From contig NZ_QEWP01000009.1 of the NCBI RefSeq assembly GCF_003121985.1, positions 124,001 through 188,000 on the forward strand: DNA of 64,000 nucleotides, written 5' to 3'. Origin of the DNA: Marinilabilia rubra (GTDB lineage: Bacteria; Bacteroidota; Bacteroidia; Bacteroidales; Marinilabiliaceae). How positions within the stretch are numbered: the stretch's first letter is position 1; each line of letters starts with the position of its first letter. The notes below the pieces were generated by a model, which did not search any database, was not told where the DNA came from, and saw nothing but the letters and a program-made list of their open reading frames with translations. The translations under genes were made by a program, and so were the position numbers. This document shows positions 7,849 through 52,828 of the stretch, in pieces.

Positions 7849-9021
7849 TTACTCACCCGTACCCCTTAAAAAGCCGGAGGCCCTACTGAAAATATTACAA
7901 AAAGCCTCATCTACATTTCCTGATACAGAACTATCCCGGATTGGGAAAGGATTTTCATGGCTGTGCTTAAAGTCAAAGTCTGACAAAGAAAAATTATTGA
8001 AAAATCCCCCCATGGAAATTGTATTGTAAATAGCATCTGCGGGAATAACTTTATCAAGTTTTAATCCAATAGCATAAACCCTTCCGGATAAAAGATCAAG
8101 AGCGGACTTGTAGTTGTCCTGCCACTTATTCAATGTAACCAATGAGGAAAATGACTGAATTAAGGCATTCCCATATGGAATGATTCCCTTAGGGAGTAAA
8201 GAAATTAAGTTGAAAAAATCAGATTTAGTGACAAATTCTCTCAATGAGCTAAAAGCACGATTGTCCAAAATACTTCTGGAACGCCCATCCATTTGATCAA
8301 AAGTAGAGCCACCGCAAAAAAAGAAGGCTTTACTTCGGGAGTAGAGTTTCATTGGATTAGCCATTAGCAAAACTTCAGTTACCAGGGCGCCAATTGAGTA
8401 AGCAAAAAAATCAACTTCGGCACCCCTCCTAAAAAGGGAATGTTTGCCTGAACGAATAGAACCTGTAAGTTTTACTATATCAGAAATACTTTGAAGGCCG
8501 GATGACATAAAAACCTGAGGACAATGATCAATTCTGGAGCTCAGAGCAGCATTAACGAAAGAACTATTAGGAATTTTTCCATAAAAATTTTGACGCTTTT
8601 TCACTACATCTGCCATCTTTCTGGGGAAACTCCACCATTCCGGTGAGCGATTAATGTGATTGGCCAAAGGAAATAAAACAACCGGCTTCCTGGTAAGATT
8701 GGTCAAATTGTAAGCCCATGTCAAATACTTGTCCCAACTCCTTTCATTCAGCCCGTGTAACAATATGATGGCACGCTCTCTATCACCTCCTCCGGCCGGA
8801 CTAAAAACAGCATATCGAAAATCTCCGTTTCTGTCATTTTGGGCAACCAATTCGCCATCTCCTATTTTTTTATTCTTTTCAGTATGTGACGAAAACTCAT
8901 TTTTCATCTCAGAAGAAAAAGCATATGTATGACAAACAACTTTGTCATCAAACGCCAGGAATGGTTTATTAATGTCGAATTGTTGACGCAGTAAATCATC
9001 CAGTTCATTTAAAAACGCCAT
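7849..9021 (-). CDS. Predicted alpha/beta-hydrolase-like protein of unknown function
   Basis: A 390-residue protein without signal peptide or membrane helices. Two features suggest an alpha/beta-hydrolase fold: an oxyanion-like strand-turn ILLHGLNERSWDKY (about residues 85-98) and a nucleophile-elbow-like FFAYSIGALV (Ser near residue 206; the usual first Gly is replaced by Ala-Tyr). A C-terminal FKHSHENPFP could supply the catalytic His. It may belong to the Bacteroidota DUF6051-type group, but that is recollection, not a search. The gene is single, with a possible -7 element (TACATTTG on the minus strand, 9092-9099) about 70 bases upstream. Substrate unknown. Confidence 0.65.
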   Translation of the reverse strand: MAFLNELDDLLRQQFDINKPFLAFDDKVVCHTYAFSSEMKNEFSSHTEKNKKIGDGELVAQNDRNGDFRYAVFSPAGGGDRERAIILLHGLNERSWDKYLTWAYNLTNLTRKPVVLFPLANHINRSPEWWSFPRKMADVVKKRQNFYGKIPNSSFVNAALSSRIDHCPQVFMSSGLQSISDIVKLTGSIRSGKHSLFRRGAEVDFFAYSIGALVTEVLLMANPMKLYSRSKAFFFCGGSTFDQMDGRSRSILDNRAFSSLREFVTKSDFFNLISLLPKGIIPYGNALIQSFSSLVTLNKWQDNYKSALDLLSGRVYAIGLKLDKVIPADAIYNTISMGGFFNNFSLSDFDFKHSHENPFPIRDSSVSGNVDEAFCNIFSRASGFLRGTGE

Positions 9022-9477
9022 AGATTAGAAATTTTGGTGCAACTCGGTTTTCCTTTTACAAAGGAGCAATATTTTCTATAAACACCGACCTCAAATGTAG
9101 TAATCAACAGCCTTTTGGGATAAACAACACAAGGAGTGGGACGAATAAACTTCTTGAGGGGTCAGTGAAACACATGACAATTATCACAAAAAACATTCTC
9201 TTGAACAACACTTTTTATTAAATACAAAATGTAATTTTGAATCTTAAAAATTCAAAATTCAAAAAAGAGATCATCATTACAATAGATCGTTAGATTTTGA
9301 GACACATGACCAAATAATAACATTAAAGAACTGAATGAATTGCCATTACCAAGCTGACTAGTTTAATATCAAAAGACTGGTAACAGGTCATTAAAAAATC
9401 ATTCCCACACCAATGAAATGAGCCATCACCGGCTATTCTCTGCTGTTAATAGTACAGGAAGCCCAAATCATATATTA

Positions 9478-9506
9478 TTGATTTCTGACAAATATCATTA
9501 ATTTTG
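9478..9506 (+). promoter_or_regulatory. Bacteroidota-type promoter for the LytTR operon
   Basis: TTG at 9478-9480 and TAATTTTG (fits TAnnTTTG) at 9499-9506 are 18 bp apart. The predicted start near 9513 leaves a leader of about 38 nt before the ATG at 9551. The rest of the 529-bp gap (9022-9550) is AT-rich; it holds a fragment of repeat family C near 9280 and no gene that I can support. Confidence 0.5.
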
Positions 9507-9550
9507 ACTTTTAAGCAGCTAAAATTTATCCCAAAACCAATCATAAAAAA

Positions 9551-10387
9551 ATGAAGAAGGGACAACGGCTTATACCTGAATATTTTATTACAAAAAAGAA
9601 TACAATACTCCAGGTACTGTTCACCACTTTATTTGCATATGTTTTCATTAACATTTATCGCCCTTTTGGTTCAGGCGATTGGTACAATGTAAGCTGGTGG
9701 GAGTTTTCACTCTACTCCGGTTTATTGGTTATAGCCGGAATGCTTGTGGTTTTAATCAGCCGCTTATTATTAATGTTTCTTATAAAAAAGAAGAAGCCCG
9801 TAACTATCCGGTACTATGTACTCATGGTAATCGGGGAAATCCTTTTCATGGCAGCAATTTATGCCATAGCCGAAAAAGCATTCATCAAAGATGAACGTAA
9901 ATTTGGCCACTTGTTATACCTCGCCATTCAAAATACAGCTCTCATCCTCCTAATACCTTATGTAATAAGCATTCTGTTTTTTGCATGGAAAGCTAAAACC
10001 ATCAGCCTGAACAATCTATTAAAACAGCTGAGGCACAATTCAAATTTCATCCCCTTCCGCGATGAAAAGGGTGTATTACGAATTTCCTTAAAGGCGGAAG
10101 ATTTATTATACATTGAATCTTCAGACAACTATATATCAATAAAGTATTTACAAAACGACCAGCATAAATCTATTCTAATCAGAAACACCCTGAAAAACCT
10201 TGAAAAAGAATTTGAAAACTCTTTATTACTCAGGTGTCACAGATCTTATATGGTGAATGTAAAACGAGTCAGCATGGTTAAGAAAGAAGGCCATAACCTG
10301 AAATTACTTTTATCCAGTCCGGAAAACGAAAAAATCCCGGTATCCAGGGGGTATCATGCCGTCGTTAAGAATTTTTTTGAGAATTAA
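9551..10387 (+). CDS. Membrane-anchored LytTR-domain DNA-binding protein
   Basis: A 278-residue protein. The N-terminal half has four hydrophobic helices (about residues 20-40, 48-76, 86-108, 122-148). The C-terminal 100 residues form a LytTR DNA-binding domain (LLYIESSDNYISIKY ... LLRCHRSYMVNVKRV ... IPVSRGYHAVV). It has no histidine-kinase motifs, so it is not a LytS-type kinase although it sits in the place where one would be expected. It is followed after 43 bases by a LytTR response regulator, very probably in one operon. It may act as a membrane-held transcription factor or modulate the neighbouring regulator; the signal is unknown. Confidence 0.85.
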   Translation: MKKGQRLIPEYFITKKNTILQVLFTTLFAYVFINIYRPFGSGDWYNVSWWEFSLYSGLLVIAGMLVVLISRLLLMFLIKKKKPVTIRYYVLMVIGEILFMAAIYAIAEKAFIKDERKFGHLLYLAIQNTALILLIPYVISILFFAWKAKTISLNNLLKQLRHNSNFIPFRDEKGVLRISLKAEDLLYIESSDNYISIKYLQNDQHKSILIRNTLKNLEKEFENSLLLRCHRSYMVNVKRVSMVKKEGHNLKLLLSSPENEKIPVSRGYHAVVKNFFEN

Positions 10388-48293: not shown

Positions 48294-48461
48294 TTAGTAT
48301 CTGTCCATAAAGTACCATTTGCTGCATTACGCTTGCCGCCAAAATACTCATTTACCCAAGTAAACTCCTTTTTTAGCGGCTTCGCAAGCTTTGCAACTGG
48401 CACTTTCTGACCAGACACATGACTAAAGACAAACTTTACTTAGTTTATAGACAGACTCTAA
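48294..48461. repeat. MITE-like repeat family B, full copy
   Basis: A 168-bp element with imperfect terminal inverted repeats: left TATCTGTCCATAAAGTA, right read inward AGTCTGTCTATAAACTA. A TAATTA flanks each end and may be a target duplication (palindromic, so weak evidence). The right terminus supplies the stop codon region of the gene at 48458. A short relative lies at 1337-1434 and a single right end at 53257-53282. Confidence 0.65.
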
Positions 48462-48904
48462 TTAATTTTCTTACATTTCTCAATCAAGCCGTCTAAAATC
48501 TCAGAAGCTCCATCAATTAATTGGGAACAGGTCTTTTCGAAAAGATTATTTTCACGAGCGTAATCGCGACCTTCAGAGGTACCGATATCAGCACCCAATA
48601 GTTGTTTGCAATCCAACCCATTAAAACGGTTCTCGAAAGTCTCCAGGAACTCCTTTTTAATCCTAAGGGCTCTCTCCTTTTCTGAAGGATTTTCAACAGA
48701 TGAATATCCAAAGTGTAAACCTAAAACCATTAAGGCACCTGTAACAGCCCCGCAGGTGTGCCCTCTTCCACAAATGCCACCACCAAACCCGGAGGCCAGT
48801 TTTAATGCATACCCAGCATCCTTAAAAAACGCTTCACCATGACTCAACAGCACTGATTGAGCGCAATTAAAGCCTTTATTAAAAACAGAACTTGCCTTTT
48901 CCAT
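48458..48904 (-). CDS. C_GCAxxG_C_C family cysteine-rich protein
   Basis: A 148-residue protein with the family cysteine pattern: FNCAQSV, GGGICGRGHTCGAVTGALMVLG, then single Cys in LDCKQLLG and KTCSQLI. The family is found in anaerobes and may bind metal or haem; its function is not established. The stop codon (TAG) and the last base pairs lie at the edge of a MITE-like repeat. It starts 4 bases after the tag gene on the same strand, so the two are probably co-transcribed. Confidence 0.87.
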   Translation of the reverse strand: MEKASSVFNKGFNCAQSVLLSHGEAFFKDAGYALKLASGFGGGICGRGHTCGAVTGALMVLGLHFGYSSVENPSEKERALRIKKEFLETFENRFNGLDCKQLLGADIGTSEGRDYARENNLFEKTCSQLIDGASEILDGLIEKCKKIN

Positions 48905-48908
48905 AATA

Positions 48909-49463
48909 TTATTGTTGAGCCCAGGAGGGTTCGTGTTTTAGTATTTCGTGATAAACCGGACACGACTCGATATGTGCGCCTGGAAGATATCCGGTACTCA
49001 TCAGAAACTCATTCACAATTTCACCCCCTGTAAATTTAAAAGTTTTGCGAAATAACTTCACCCATTCCTCTTTAGACTTGGGGTGATGATGGTCCAGCCA
49101 GCTCTTAAAGGAGCCAAAATCCTTTTGAAGAGTCAATACCACGTTGGCATTGTGAATGGTGGCATCCACTTTTCTGCGATTTCGAATAATTCCGGCATCA
49201 TTTAATAATCTCTCCCGGTCTTTTTCGCCATAACCGGCCACCTTTTTTATTTCAAAACCGTGAAATGCCTTTTTAAAATTATCCTGCTTTTTAAGAATGG
49301 TGGTCCAACTTAAACCAGCCTGATTGATTTCAAGAATCAGTCTTTCAAACAATTCATTGTCATTTTCAATGGGAAAGCCATAAGCCGTGTCGTGATAGAC
49401 ACGGTGAACGCTGTCGTCTTCCATTATCTCTACTGCTTCGCAATACGATTTGGGTTGTGCCAT
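48909..49463 (-). CDS. tag: DNA-3-methyladenine glycosylase I
   Basis: A 184-residue base-excision enzyme that removes 3-methyladenine. Landmarks are YHDTAYGFPIENDNELFERL, QAGLSWTTILKKQDNFKKAF, NDAGIIRNRRKVDATI and the C-terminal HIESCPVYH, supplying the His and Cys of the zinc snap, with the N-terminal Cys in SYCEAVE. The N-terminal motif is SYCEAVEIMEDDSVHRVYHD instead of the usual CxW form. An ATG at 49493 is in frame, but the ATG at 49463 fits the family length better. Confidence 0.92.
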   Translation of the reverse strand: MAQPKSYCEAVEIMEDDSVHRVYHDTAYGFPIENDNELFERLILEINQAGLSWTTILKKQDNFKKAFHGFEIKKVAGYGEKDRERLLNDAGIIRNRRKVDATIHNANVVLTLQKDFGSFKSWLDHHHPKSKEEWVKLFRKTFKFTGGEIVNEFLMSTGYLPGAHIESCPVYHEILKHEPSWAQQ

Positions 49464-49584
49464 AAGATTTAATTTCATAAAGATTTCCGCCAACCAAATT
49501 AAAGGCTGGCCATACAGATAGGCGATGGTAAAAAATCCTGAACGAAGTTAAAAAAATTCCTGGCTTATTTATGGCATTAAAACC

Positions 49585-50601
49585 TCATCTTGCCTCCTTC
49601 AGTCCGGATAAGAAATTTTTCACACAAGCACCAAGAACTTCAAGGTTGTAACCCCCTTCCTGACAAATCAGAATAGGCAGATTCAGGGCTCCAAATTCTT
49701 TCCCAATGGTAAAAAAATCCTCAGTTTGAAGATTGAATCCACCAATTGGATCATCAACATGAGTATCAAATCCTGCAGACAAAATAAGCCAGGAGGGATT
49801 AAATTCCTTAATATGAGTAGTAATGCGTCTCACCGCTTCCAGGTATTCAGGCAAACCTGTTCCTTTGGGCAAAGGTTCGTTGTGATTTGAGCCAACACCC
49901 TGTCCCTTTCCGGTCTCCTCTGAATATCCCCAGAAATATGGATACTCATTTGAAGGATCGCAATGAATGGAGGAAGTAAAAACCGATTTGACTTCCTGGA
50001 AAAATTCCTGAGTGCCATTCCCATGATGATAATCCGTATCTACTATGGCCACGGTTCCGTGAGGTAACAGATATTCGGCTGCCGTAGCCGCATTATTGAA
50101 ATAGCAATAGCCGCCAAATACCCGCGGACCGGCATGATGGCCTGATGGCCGGCAAAGTGCATAAACGAGGTCTGCATCCCCTTTATGGAGCATTTCGGCT
50201 CCGGTCAAAGCAGATTCGGCAGAGGCCCGTGCTACATCATAGGTCTTTTTCTTGATAGGAGTAACAGCATCTGTGCACCATATTCCGCCCCACAAAGGTG
50301 AATCAACCCTTTTGGGGAGATGCGCTCCTTCCCCCGGAAACAAATCGGGATAGAATTCCTCATCCTCTTTCATCTCAAGTGCTGTGTTGCGAATGTAATC
50401 ATGGTAAGGATGTATTTTAGCAATATACCGTTCGGGGAATTTTCTGGCCTTAAAAAACTGAAAGTCTGCCTCATTACTCAAAGCTTGCTTTATGGTTTCA
50501 ACCCGGTGCGGTGTATCCTTTATTTCATAAGATTCGGGCCCAAGCTGAAATTTCCAGTAAGGATTGTGAAGACTGTCGTTGTATTTTTCAATGACTATCA
50601 T
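49585..50601 (-). CDS. HDAC-superfamily deacetylase (acetylpolyamine amidohydrolase-like)
   Basis: A 338-residue zinc amidohydrolase of the arginase/deacetylase fold. Catalytic histidines are in RPSGHHAGP (155-156), zinc ligands Asp190 and His192 in DTDYHHGNGTQ and Asp279 in LSAGFDTHVDD, and the transition-state Tyr is in EGGYNLEVLG. It removes acetyl or similar acyl groups from amines; the natural substrate could be acetylated polyamines or a small amide. The ATP-grasp/DmpA fusion gene lies 85 bases upstream on the same strand, so the two may act on one metabolite. speA for agmatine synthesis is 10 kb away. Confidence 0.92.
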   Translation of the reverse strand: MIVIEKYNDSLHNPYWKFQLGPESYEIKDTPHRVETIKQALSNEADFQFFKARKFPERYIAKIHPYHDYIRNTALEMKEDEEFYPDLFPGEGAHLPKRVDSPLWGGIWCTDAVTPIKKKTYDVARASAESALTGAEMLHKGDADLVYALCRPSGHHAGPRVFGGYCYFNNAATAAEYLLPHGTVAIVDTDYHHGNGTQEFFQEVKSVFTSSIHCDPSNEYPYFWGYSEETGKGQGVGSNHNEPLPKGTGLPEYLEAVRRITTHIKEFNPSWLILSAGFDTHVDDPIGGFNLQTEDFFTIGKEFGALNLPILICQEGGYNLEVLGACVKNFLSGLKEAR

Positions 50602-50686: not shown

Positions 50687-52828
50687 TCAAATCTTTCTGC
50701 CCCCTTTTAATATTTCCACTACCCGATCGTGAGGAATTGGGGGACACCATCTTTGCATACGTCCGTTCATCCCTCCCGAGCAAAACATTGCATTCAGGAC
50801 AGCTTCTTCAGTAGCTTCCACAACAGCTTCATAAACAATGTTAATATGAGCGTCAGAAATACACTTAAGGGTGATGAATTTATTTGTTGAAGAGGTGGAC
50901 CTCGGCTTACGATTACCCGTGCTAAAAGCCACGATTATTTCTCCGCTTGTGGAAGCAGCAAAGCTCCCGGTTCGTCCCAACCCCAGCGCAGCCCGGCGGG
51001 ACAAACGATTGAGCTGACTGCTGATCAAAGGCACATCGGTACCCACAACCACAATAACAGAACCTTCCGAAGCTTCCCGCCGGCTCAAATAATCAAACTC
51101 TTTATCCAGTTCACGACCCACTACCGCTCCATCCACGGTGAGGTTGCGCATTTTTCCAAAGTTAGACAATACCAATACCCCAACAGTAAAACCGCCGCCT
51201 TCGGGCATATCAATGATTCTGGATGATGTGCCAATTCCTCCGGCAAAATCGAAACTCGTCATTCCTGTACCGGCACCAACAGACCCCTGCAAAACGCCCT
51301 TATCAGTAGCCCTTTCTATGGCCTTTACAGTATCCTGTCCACTGCAATACCCAACTCTTACATCATTCAGAAAAGAATCATCCGCTTCCCCCACCACAGG
51401 TAATACCACATCGGTCACAGTACCCAACTTGGGATACTTTCTGATCATATGGTTTATTACACCGGAATAAACCCTCCCTACAGCGTGGGAGTTGGTCAAT
51501 AAAACAGGTGTTTCCAACCAGCCGGTTTCCAAAACCTGGGTCAGGCCTGCCATCTCGCCAACCCCGTTGAGAATAAAGCCACCGGCCACCAACCTGTTAA
51601 TGTAAGTATGTCCGGCCGGTAAAACAGCAGTAACTCCGGTTCTGATACTTGTCACCTCTGTATGTCCGGGAATTTTCACATTGTCCTCAATCCAGGAAAA
51701 ATGCCCCACTCTCACTCCCTTAACATCTGTTATGGCATTTTGCAATCCCGGACTCAGATGACCGACTGAGACTCCAAGCTCTCTGGCCGTAGGTCTTTGA
51801 ACGCCAATCTCATAATCCCCTTTCAGGCTTTTCCTAACCGGCCGAATAGCCAATCCATAGCGACGGGCAGCCGACCGGATTATCAGCCGGATAACATCAC
51901 GAAACTCCAATCCCCTTTTTCTTGCGGCAACCATCAATGAGGCATTTGGATGAAGACTGGGAAGTGGATTTAGTTCAATAAAATAAGGCTTTCCACTTTT
52001 ATCCAGCCTGATGTCGACCCTTCCCAAATCAGGACAAGTCATGAAATCAAAAACCTTCCGGGCCATTTCCAGAACAGCCCGTTCCTCTCTCGCACTTATT
52101 TCGGCCGGGCATTTAACATGAACAGCATCTTCATTTACGCCCTGTTTAAGCGAATAATCGTAAATATTAAATTTTCCTCCCGTTTTCTCAAGATCAAAGG
52201 TGTGTTCCACTATATCCAGAATTTTACCCGGATAACTTTCAATAAACGGAACGCTGAGCTCACGCCCCTGAATAAATTCCTCAACAACCAACCCGGCAGG
52301 ATATTCACGCAACAGTTCATTAATGCGTTTTTGTGCAGTACGTGAATCCTCAACAACCGATTTCTGTGAGATCCCGATACTCGATCCCTCCGAGTTAGGT
52401 TTTATCATCAGTGGATAGTGAAGATTCCCCGGAATAATATGGTCTTTGGGAGTAACAAGGGATCCCAGAGGCACCCTGATTCCGCGTGAACCAAGAACAG
52501 TCTTCGTGAGGTGCTTATCCAGATTCAAATGCAAAAGAGAGGCATTTCCTCCCGTAAAAGGAATCCCCATTTGCTCGTATAAGCCGGGATAAAAAGCTTC
52601 ACGGGAGCTTCCGATAGTACCTTCGGCCAGATTAAAAATCAAATCGGGCTCACTCTCCAAAAGTCTCTCAACTACATCGTTGGGCTTTCCCGAAACTTCA
52701 ACCAATTTAACAGTGTGTTGCAAACTCGAAATGGCGTGAAAAATCCGCTCAATATCTTCTTTTGCAATCAACTCTGCGGATTGTTCCTCTTCATTATAAC
52801 GAAGGTTAAATGCGATAGTAATTCTCAT
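50687..52828 (-). CDS. Fusion of a D-Ala-D-Ala-ligase-like ATP-grasp enzyme and a P1/DmpA-type aminopeptidase
   Basis: A single uninterrupted 713-residue frame. Residues 1 to about 325 form a D-Ala-D-Ala-ligase-like ATP-grasp enzyme: DLIFNLAEG (64-70 region), FTGGNASLLHLNLDKHLTK, ATP-binding KPNSEGSSIGI (143-153), EEFIQGREL and metal-binding DIRLDKSGKPYFIELNPLP. After a short linker, residues about 347-713 form a P1-family (MEROPS S58, DmpA) Ntn-hydrolase-like aminopeptidase: NAITDVKGVRVGHFSW, LTNSHAVGRVYSG, VGEADDSFLND and SVGAGTGMTSFDFAGGIGTSSR (516-537, in parts), near the family's self-cleavage site. One half makes an amide/peptide bond and the other should hydrolyse one, perhaps on a D- or beta-amino acid peptide. 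Substrate unknown. Confidence 0.9.
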   Translation of the reverse strand: MRITIAFNLRYNEEEQSAELIAKEDIERIFHAISSLQHTVKLVEVSGKPNDVVERLLESEPDLIFNLAEGTIGSSREAFYPGLYEQMGIPFTGGNASLLHLNLDKHLTKTVLGSRGIRVPLGSLVTPKDHIIPGNLHYPLMIKPNSEGSSIGISQKSVVEDSRTAQKRINELLREYPAGLVVEEFIQGRELSVPFIESYPGKILDIVEHTFDLEKTGGKFNIYDYSLKQGVNEDAVHVKCPAEISAREERAVLEMARKVFDFMTCPDLGRVDIRLDKSGKPYFIELNPLPSLHPNASLMVAARKRGLEFRDVIRLIIRSAARRYGLAIRPVRKSLKGDYEIGVQRPTARELGVSVGHLSPGLQNAITDVKGVRVGHFSWIEDNVKIPGHTEVTSIRTGVTAVLPAGHTYINRLVAGGFILNGVGEMAGLTQVLETGWLETPVLLTNSHAVGRVYSGVINHMIRKYPKLGTVTDVVLPVVGEADDSFLNDVRVGYCSGQDTVKAIERATDKGVLQGSVGAGTGMTSFDFAGGIGTSSRIIDMPEGGGFTVGVLVLSNFGKMRNLTVDGAVVGRELDKEFDYLSRREASEGSVIVVVGTDVPLISSQLNRLSRRAALGLGRTGSFAASTSGEIIVAFSTGNRKPRSTSSTNKFITLKCISDAHINIVYEAVVEATEEAVLNAMFCSGGMNGRMQRWCPPIPHDRVVEILKGGRKI

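Follow-up and report, generated by a model that had tools for sequence, protein, structure and literature searches.

In Marinilabilia rubra, a D-Ala-D-Ala-ligase-like ATP-grasp enzyme and an S58 (DmpA-type) peptidase are encoded as one protein, followed on the same strand by a histone-deacetylase-fold gene. Analysis of the window, a 64,000-nucleotide stretch of the genome, and of related loci confirmed that the fusion of ligase and peptidase is real and showed that fusion and deacetylase-fold gene form a two-gene cassette. We propose, at a probability of about 0.43, that the fusion forms and hydrolyzes a single amide bond in a peptide containing beta-lysine and that the deacetylase opens the acetylated osmolyte, a chemistry that we infer. 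The features are (window positions):

50687..52828, minus strand: fusion gene, 713 aa, ATP-grasp ligase plus S58 (DmpA-type) peptidase (frame and Pfam; 26 intact copies including the window's)
51854..52828, minus strand: residues 1-325, D-Ala-D-Ala-ligase-like ATP-grasp domain (PF07478; invariance in 25 aligned fusions)
51791..51853, minus strand: residues 326-346, variable linker, the least conserved stretch of the fusion
51062..51790, minus strand: residues 347-589, alpha part of the S58 peptidase (Pfam, DmpA alignment, invariant residues)
50690..51061, minus strand: residues 590-713, predicted beta part of the S58 peptidase (1b65 alignment; cleavage rule from the accessible part of PMC9570944)
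49585..50601, minus strand: partner gene, 338 aa, histone-deacetylase-fold amidohydrolase (PF00850, 3q9b, 28 copies)

As the preliminary description of this DNA had it, the fusion is a single unbroken frame, open on the minus strand from an ATG at 52828 to a stop codon at 50687-50689 (713 residues). Pfam profiles identified Dala_Dala_lig_C (PF07478) at residues 134-317 (E 7e-31, 107.7 bits, cut-off 24) and Peptidase_S58 (PF03576) at residues 364-692 (E 2e-100, 336.7 bits, cut-off 23.9), the latter covering profile positions 1-304 of 307. These matches, far above their cut-offs, bear out the two enzyme types named earlier and agree with the limits then drawn for ligase (1-325) and peptidase (347-713). 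The ligase part lies near D-Ala-D-Ala ligases (best NCBIfam score 150.1 bits, cut-off 243), and its solved relatives are Ddl/Van ligases. Among the best 25 of 42 NCBIfam families, it stayed below the cut-off of every Ddl/Van model, and the fusion matched neither AblA nor AblB. The closest solved relatives of the S58 half were the archaeal D-aminopeptidase 2drh (E 4e-82), DmpA (1b65, E 2e-62) and BapA (3n2w, E 7e-57), so that 2drh, not BapA, is nearest. The fusion holds the only S58 match in the window's genome. Judged by eye, its start lacks a signal-like segment, whereas a separate S58 gene in locus L078 starts with one; in the best explanation the protein would tentatively be a cytosolic bifunctional enzyme, a location read from this start. 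A structure prediction of the whole fusion (22 sequences, mean pLDDT 49) was set aside.

Twenty-five further intact fusions were 65-81% identical to that of the window (26 in all). They were obtained by scanning a species-genome collection with the ligase part (25 loci), a search built on two exact peptide patterns that could miss distant cassettes, and by adding four copies from relatives of a Desulfobulbaceae genome. Of four other genomes whose record titles place them in Marinilabilia, three contained the whole fusion at 80-81% identity; in the fourth (L083), contig ends divide it into two pieces. Beyond Marinilabilia, 22 genomes encoded an intact fusion, and the copies in G600 and G603, which lie on contigs of 5.11 and 5.09 Mb, exclude a short-contig artefact. 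Partial cassettes were found in four scan loci: L083, L097, L104 (a 113-residue ligase stump) and L105 (a 43-residue piece at a contig end). The fusion was absent from 32 other sampled genomes of Marinilabilia's family and 24 of its order, and profile-type searches of 61, 395, 119 and 145 genomes revealed no more distant fusions. Long frames around S58 matches made three genomes (G063, G090, G299) candidates for further fusions. L069 and L071 lacked a ligase match next to the S58 stretch; for L070, neither a ligase nor an S58 domain came out of the frame caller, and G299 may still carry a fusion.

The preliminary description had considered that a sequencing error might have joined two genes that relatives keep apart. 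None of the loci read contained a whole ligase gene and a whole S58 peptidase gene side by side. One relative, L097 (Candidatus Electrothrix), has a broken frame of 449 + 281 aa, which might favor a lost stop codon or an assembly joint as the origin of the fusion, but its break falls within the peptidase and not at the linker, both halves are under purifying selection, and the 26 intact fusions stem from separate assemblies. The intact copies rule out a sequencing error or artefact for practical purposes, and we rate its probability as close to nil. In L097 itself (7986-10156), the two frames overlap, and a frameshift or an assembly error could each account for them.

Both catalytic residue sets are kept. 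Across 25 aligned fusions (including L102, leaving out L180), K105, K143, E147-S150, E183, E184, R270, D272, E285 and N287 of the ATP-grasp domain and E481, N556, G589, S590, S628 and G629 of the S58 domain were invariant. We take K105, K143, E183/E184, D272, E285 and N287 to be the ATP/metal-binding residues of an ATP-grasp site. By contrast, the linker averaged 54% majority residue against 84-86% elsewhere (alignment leaving out L102). Nei-Gojobori estimates for five close pairs gave dN 0.022-0.041 and dS 0.39-0.88 for the ligase, dN 0.023-0.044 and dS 0.47-1.09 for the peptidase alpha part, and dN 0.000-0.035 and dS 0.36-0.76 for the beta part; in two more distant pairs, dS of these parts was over 1.2 or not estimable. 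Low dN relative to dS in all three parts indicates that selection keeps both halves, which are thus under purifying selection.

According to the accessible part of PMC9570944, S58 enzymes are processed at a Gly-Ser bond, the beta chain of reconstructed DmpA starts with SIIVVIATDA, and the active-site residues are Glu144, Gln216, Asn218, Ser288 and Gly289, with Tyr146 variable. In the 1b65 alignment, DmpA G249/S250 correspond to G589/S590 of the fusion, and E144, N218, S288 and G289 to E481, N556, S628 and G629. DmpA Y146 and Q216 are replaced by D483 and L554; 2drh also has L at the position of Q216. The predicted scissile bond of the fusion is G589/S590, with S590 as the putative N-terminal nucleophile after cleavage, and the products would be a chain of residues 1-589 that unites ligase and alpha part, and a 124-residue beta chain (590-713). 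Since this bond lies inside the peptidase, the ligase would stay attached to the alpha part. The earlier idea that self-cleavage frees the ligase is not supported, since cutting at the predicted Gly-Ser site would release only the beta chain. The segment GGIGTSSR, previously singled out as the place to look for cleavage, is present (residues 530-537) but ends 53 residues before S590 and is not the expected site.

The partner gene matches the histone-deacetylase-fold profile PF00850 at 226.2 bits. Its nearest solved proteins are acetylpolyamine amidohydrolases (3q9b, E 8.6e-59), and no NCBIfam family matched it. Residues H155/H156, D190/H192, D279 and Y318, presumably the catalytic and zinc-binding positions, were invariant in 28 copies. 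Each of the 26 intact fusions has a gene for a histone-deacetylase-fold protein as its next same-strand frame of at least 80 aa; the other copies are 64-79% identical to that at 49585-50601. When starts are set by alignment to the window copy, fusion and partner frames share 4-17 bases in 16/26 cases, and gaps of 4 to 668 bases separate them in the other ten (window 85, L095 50). Downstream of the deacetylase, other Marinilabilia carry varying sets of glycoside hydrolase 88, glucosaminidase and polysaccharide deacetylase genes (Pfam, L022 and L023). The regions compared were:

Window 48458-49493 (two other short genes) versus L022:5865-7865, L023:12338-14282 and L026:2850-7107

Record titles of the scan loci name Marinilabilia, Prolixibacteraceae, Tangfeifania, Melioribacteraceae, Candidatus Electronema, Electrothrix, Desulfobulbaceae, Spirochaetes, Neomarinimicrobiota, Spartobacteria, Kiritimatiellae, Psychromonas, Riflebacteria and an unplaced proteobacterium. 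We take these hosts to group into about seven phyla; many of the genomes are metagenome bins, in which contigs may be misassigned. The Melioribacteraceae and Prolixibacteraceae copies are 94.5% identical, those of Kiritimatiellae and Psychromonas 89.1%, and among 119 genomes comprising the Psychromonas carrier and its relatives only the carrier has the cassette. As identity between copies does not follow kinship, horizontal transfer is the simplest reading, and the cassette probably moves in this way. Among plasmid records, 195 had matches but none covered 80% of the fusion, and of the 23 stretches of viral contigs that matched a pattern none encoded a relative.

The genomic context of the hosts points to beta-lysine. 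In the part of PMC1224877 available, the N-epsilon-acetyl-beta-lysine pathway consists of two enzymes, the aminomutase AblA and the acetyltransferase AblB, and methanogens show little if any turnover of the osmolyte, which lends no support to a breakdown route. We detected ablB (TIGR03827) above its 205-bit cut-off in 28/30 cassette genomes (24/26 plus 4/4, the latter being G599, G600, G603 and G721; 26/28 without the fragment loci L104 and L105). The exceptions were an Electronema MAG of 2.7 Mb (G459), with no match, and a Riflebacteria MAG (G476), at 27.8 bits. Among cassette-free genomes, ablB was rarer: 15/393 in the phylum sample (17/395 less two carriers), 11/137 in the set around G468 (7/8 carriers) and 4/118 in the set around G473 (1/1 carrier). 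Fisher p-values of 0.0017 for the phylum sample, 1e-6 for the relatives of G468 and 0.04 for those of G473 count related genomes as independent and are descriptive only. Relatives of the window's genome had ablB in 16/56 cassette-free genomes against 5/5 carriers, all of one genus. Fifteen of those 16 belong to Marinilabilia's family (15/32 cassette-free family genomes), so the association is weak within it. In the samples, the majority of genomes with ablB are cassette-free, so the cassette would be an accessory and not a requirement. From their record names, we take the hosts to come largely from marine or anaerobic habitats, and habitat may confound the association. Ectoine synthase exceeded its cut-off in 0/30 cassette genomes (two weak matches below it) and in 0/14 control genomes; we counted this absence, from a run with no positive control, in favor of the beta-lysine reading.

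Physical linkage is confined to few loci. L086 has ablB immediately before the cassette (287 bits), and Psychromonas has it immediately after (L099/L183, 332 bits); each score exceeds the 205-bit cut-off. In tblastn searches of all cassette loci, ablB adjoined the cassette in only 2/26 intact loci and ablA in 0/26. A true AblA (TIGR03820, 770 bits, cut-off 525) directly follows the ligase stump in L104; this locus (7914-9772) holds the first 113 ligase residues, then ablA and, by eye, a symporter-like gene, and may reflect either a deletion or a false join in the assembly. In the window's genome, ablA, ablB and a sodium:solute symporter gene lie in a row on a contig other than the window's (L177). 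This symporter (L177:6023-7438, PF00474), with similar-looking genes by eye beside abl genes in L104, L186, L187 and L191, may transport the osmolyte or its precursor.

Outside the cassette, the best-scoring separate ligases reached 31-38% identity and up to 172 bits. Nine of ten fetched loci whose separate ligases scored above presumed Ddl also contained a lysine-2,3-aminomutase-like radical SAM gene (L027, L028, L029, L072, L073, L074, found there by tblastn, L076, L077 and L182); the tenth, L075, is a 5.7 kb contig without one. These aminomutase gene sets, found in several families and arranged in two different orders, pair two ATP-grasp ligases with the aminomutase gene, and six of the nine loci (L027, L072, L073, L074, L076, L077) also encode a GNAT acetyltransferase. 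The aminomutases scored (L027 and L076, 485 and 467 bits) exceeded the KamA-family cut-off but not AblA's 525. In the wider tree, fused ligases formed a clade of their own, separate from presumed Ddl and from aminomutase-set ligases, and a weak branch (72/87) joined it to presumed Ddl. The ligase trees are midpoint-rooted, with long branches meeting and Ddl labels presumed from score and size, and neither settles the nearest relative of the fused ligases. The window's genome has a second, unfused ATP-grasp ligase (G000:C58, 25% identity), presumably the cell-wall Ddl. Other genomes of the family encode a second ligase-peptidase-like fusion of ~715 aa, a Ddl-like ATP-grasp domain with a C-terminal half resembling Peptidase_M20 (scores of 22-31 bits straddle the cut-off of 24.6), a peptidase different from S58, and L035:617-2518 (633 aa) joins a methyltransferase to a Ddl-like ATP-grasp domain. 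The second fusion is located at:

L030:6195-8339, L031:8074-10242, L032:6139-8292, L033:5068-7218 and L034:6341-8488: ATP-grasp plus M20-like half

In the proposed mechanism, the ATP-grasp domain would activate a carboxylate with ATP and couple beta-lysine, either free or acetylated, to another amino acid. The S58 domain, self-cleaved at G589/S590, would take the N-terminal beta-amino acid off again, and the deacetylase-fold partner would remove the epsilon-acetyl group once the osmolyte is no longer needed. Fusion would keep the two opposed activities at a fixed ratio and under common control. Glutathionylspermidine synthetase/amidase likewise carries an ATP-grasp ligase and an amidase on one chain, acting in opposite directions on the same bond. 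An unusual-amide ligase fused to a peptidase, beside a deacetylase and in ablB hosts, makes synthesis and hydrolysis of a beta-lysine peptide the economical reading. The S58 family includes beta-aminopeptidases (BapA, 3n2w), which we counted in its favor, and the aminomutase gene sets of the separate ligases provide a second pointer to beta-amino acids. Counting against it are the placement of ablAB on another contig in the window's genome, the adjacency of ablB in only 2/26 loci, an S58 domain nearest to 2drh instead of BapA, and the weak 72/87 branch to presumed Ddl. Of the preliminary description, the frame, the enzyme types and the idea of a putative joined synthesis and breakdown of an unusual peptide stand, and the genomic tie to beta-lysine metabolism gives weight to the last of these. 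The idea that self-cleavage frees the ligase is not supported.

Two opposed activities on one chain need not share a bond. The ligase product may not be the peptidase substrate, the two halves serving successive or independent steps (supply of a building block, or editing) with fusion securing co-expression or proximity; the poorly conserved linker and the general observation that metabolic fusions often join neighboring steps are consistent with this. We consider it somewhat unlikely, as opposed amide formation and hydrolysis make a shared bond simplest. Membership of the ligase domain in the Ddl superfamily, the D-aminopeptidase 2drh as best solved relative of the S58 domain and one weak tree branch placing fused ligases with presumed Ddl would fit an enzyme that makes a D-amino-acid dipeptide, for the cell wall or otherwise, and recycles it through its D-aminopeptidase-like domain, with the deacetylase merely co-traveling. 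The ligase, however, scores far below all cut-offs among the best 25 NCBIfam matches to Ddl/Van models, the genome already has the unfused G000:C58, presumably its cell-wall Ddl, and neither a deacetylase as constant neighbor nor the ablB association is predicted, which leaves this account unlikely.

A polyamine module appears rather unlikely as well, although the best solved relatives of the partner are acetylpolyamine amidohydrolases and the chain of ligase plus amidase has its precedent in glutathionylspermidine synthetase/amidase. Here the partner would free acetylated polyamines, the ATP-grasp domain would couple an amino acid or peptide to the polyamine, and the S58 domain would hydrolyze the conjugate, in parallel to that enzyme. 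Such a module does not predict ablB in 28/30 hosts, and neither domain of glutathionylspermidine synthetase/amidase (CHAP amidase, GSP-synthase ATP-grasp) was among the six Pfam families matching the fusion (E up to 0.1).

Among the open-licence PMC papers listed, judged in part by title or the start of the abstract, we found no description of the fusion or of a link between aminomutase, ATP-grasp ligases and beta-lysine, though domain-architecture listings may already have the architecture. For acetyl-beta-lysine together with a deacetylase, the matching portion of that literature concerns N-alpha-acetyl-alpha-lysine only. If the beta-lysine reading is true, an undescribed salt-stress module is common to bacteria of about seven phyla, with an enzyme that both assembles and dismantles its peptide product. 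In that case acetyl-beta-lysine gains a removal route, and a natural ligase-peptidase pair becomes available for beta-peptides, which attract interest in synthesis. How the gene pair affects beta-lysine metabolites at high or falling salinity is a testable question.

With the S58 enzymes DmpA, BapA and the Pyrococcus D-aminopeptidase (2drh) the fusion shares the whole domain, the Gly-Ser site and the E/N/S active-site residues, but only the fusion bears an ATP-dependent ligase at its N-terminus. It shares with Ddl/VanA the ATP-grasp C-terminal domain PF07478 and the conserved lysines and D/E/N residues, yet falls under the NCBIfam cut-offs (best 25 of 42 families), forms its own clade and is fused to a peptidase. 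Glutathionylspermidine synthetase/amidase belongs to a different ATP-grasp branch and has an N-terminal CHAP cysteine amidase, in contrast to the C-terminal S58 peptidase of the fusion. The aminomutase gene sets contain the best separate relatives of its ligase, and their neighbors too point to acetylated beta-amino acids, whereas they lack a peptidase and their ligases are unfused and paired. The N-epsilon-acetyl-beta-lysine pathway is connected to the cassette through ablB in 28/30 hosts and through abl genes that adjoin a cassette or cassette remnant at three loci; as described in the accessible part of PMC1224877, it includes no ligase, peptidase or deacetylase, whereas the cassette has all three.
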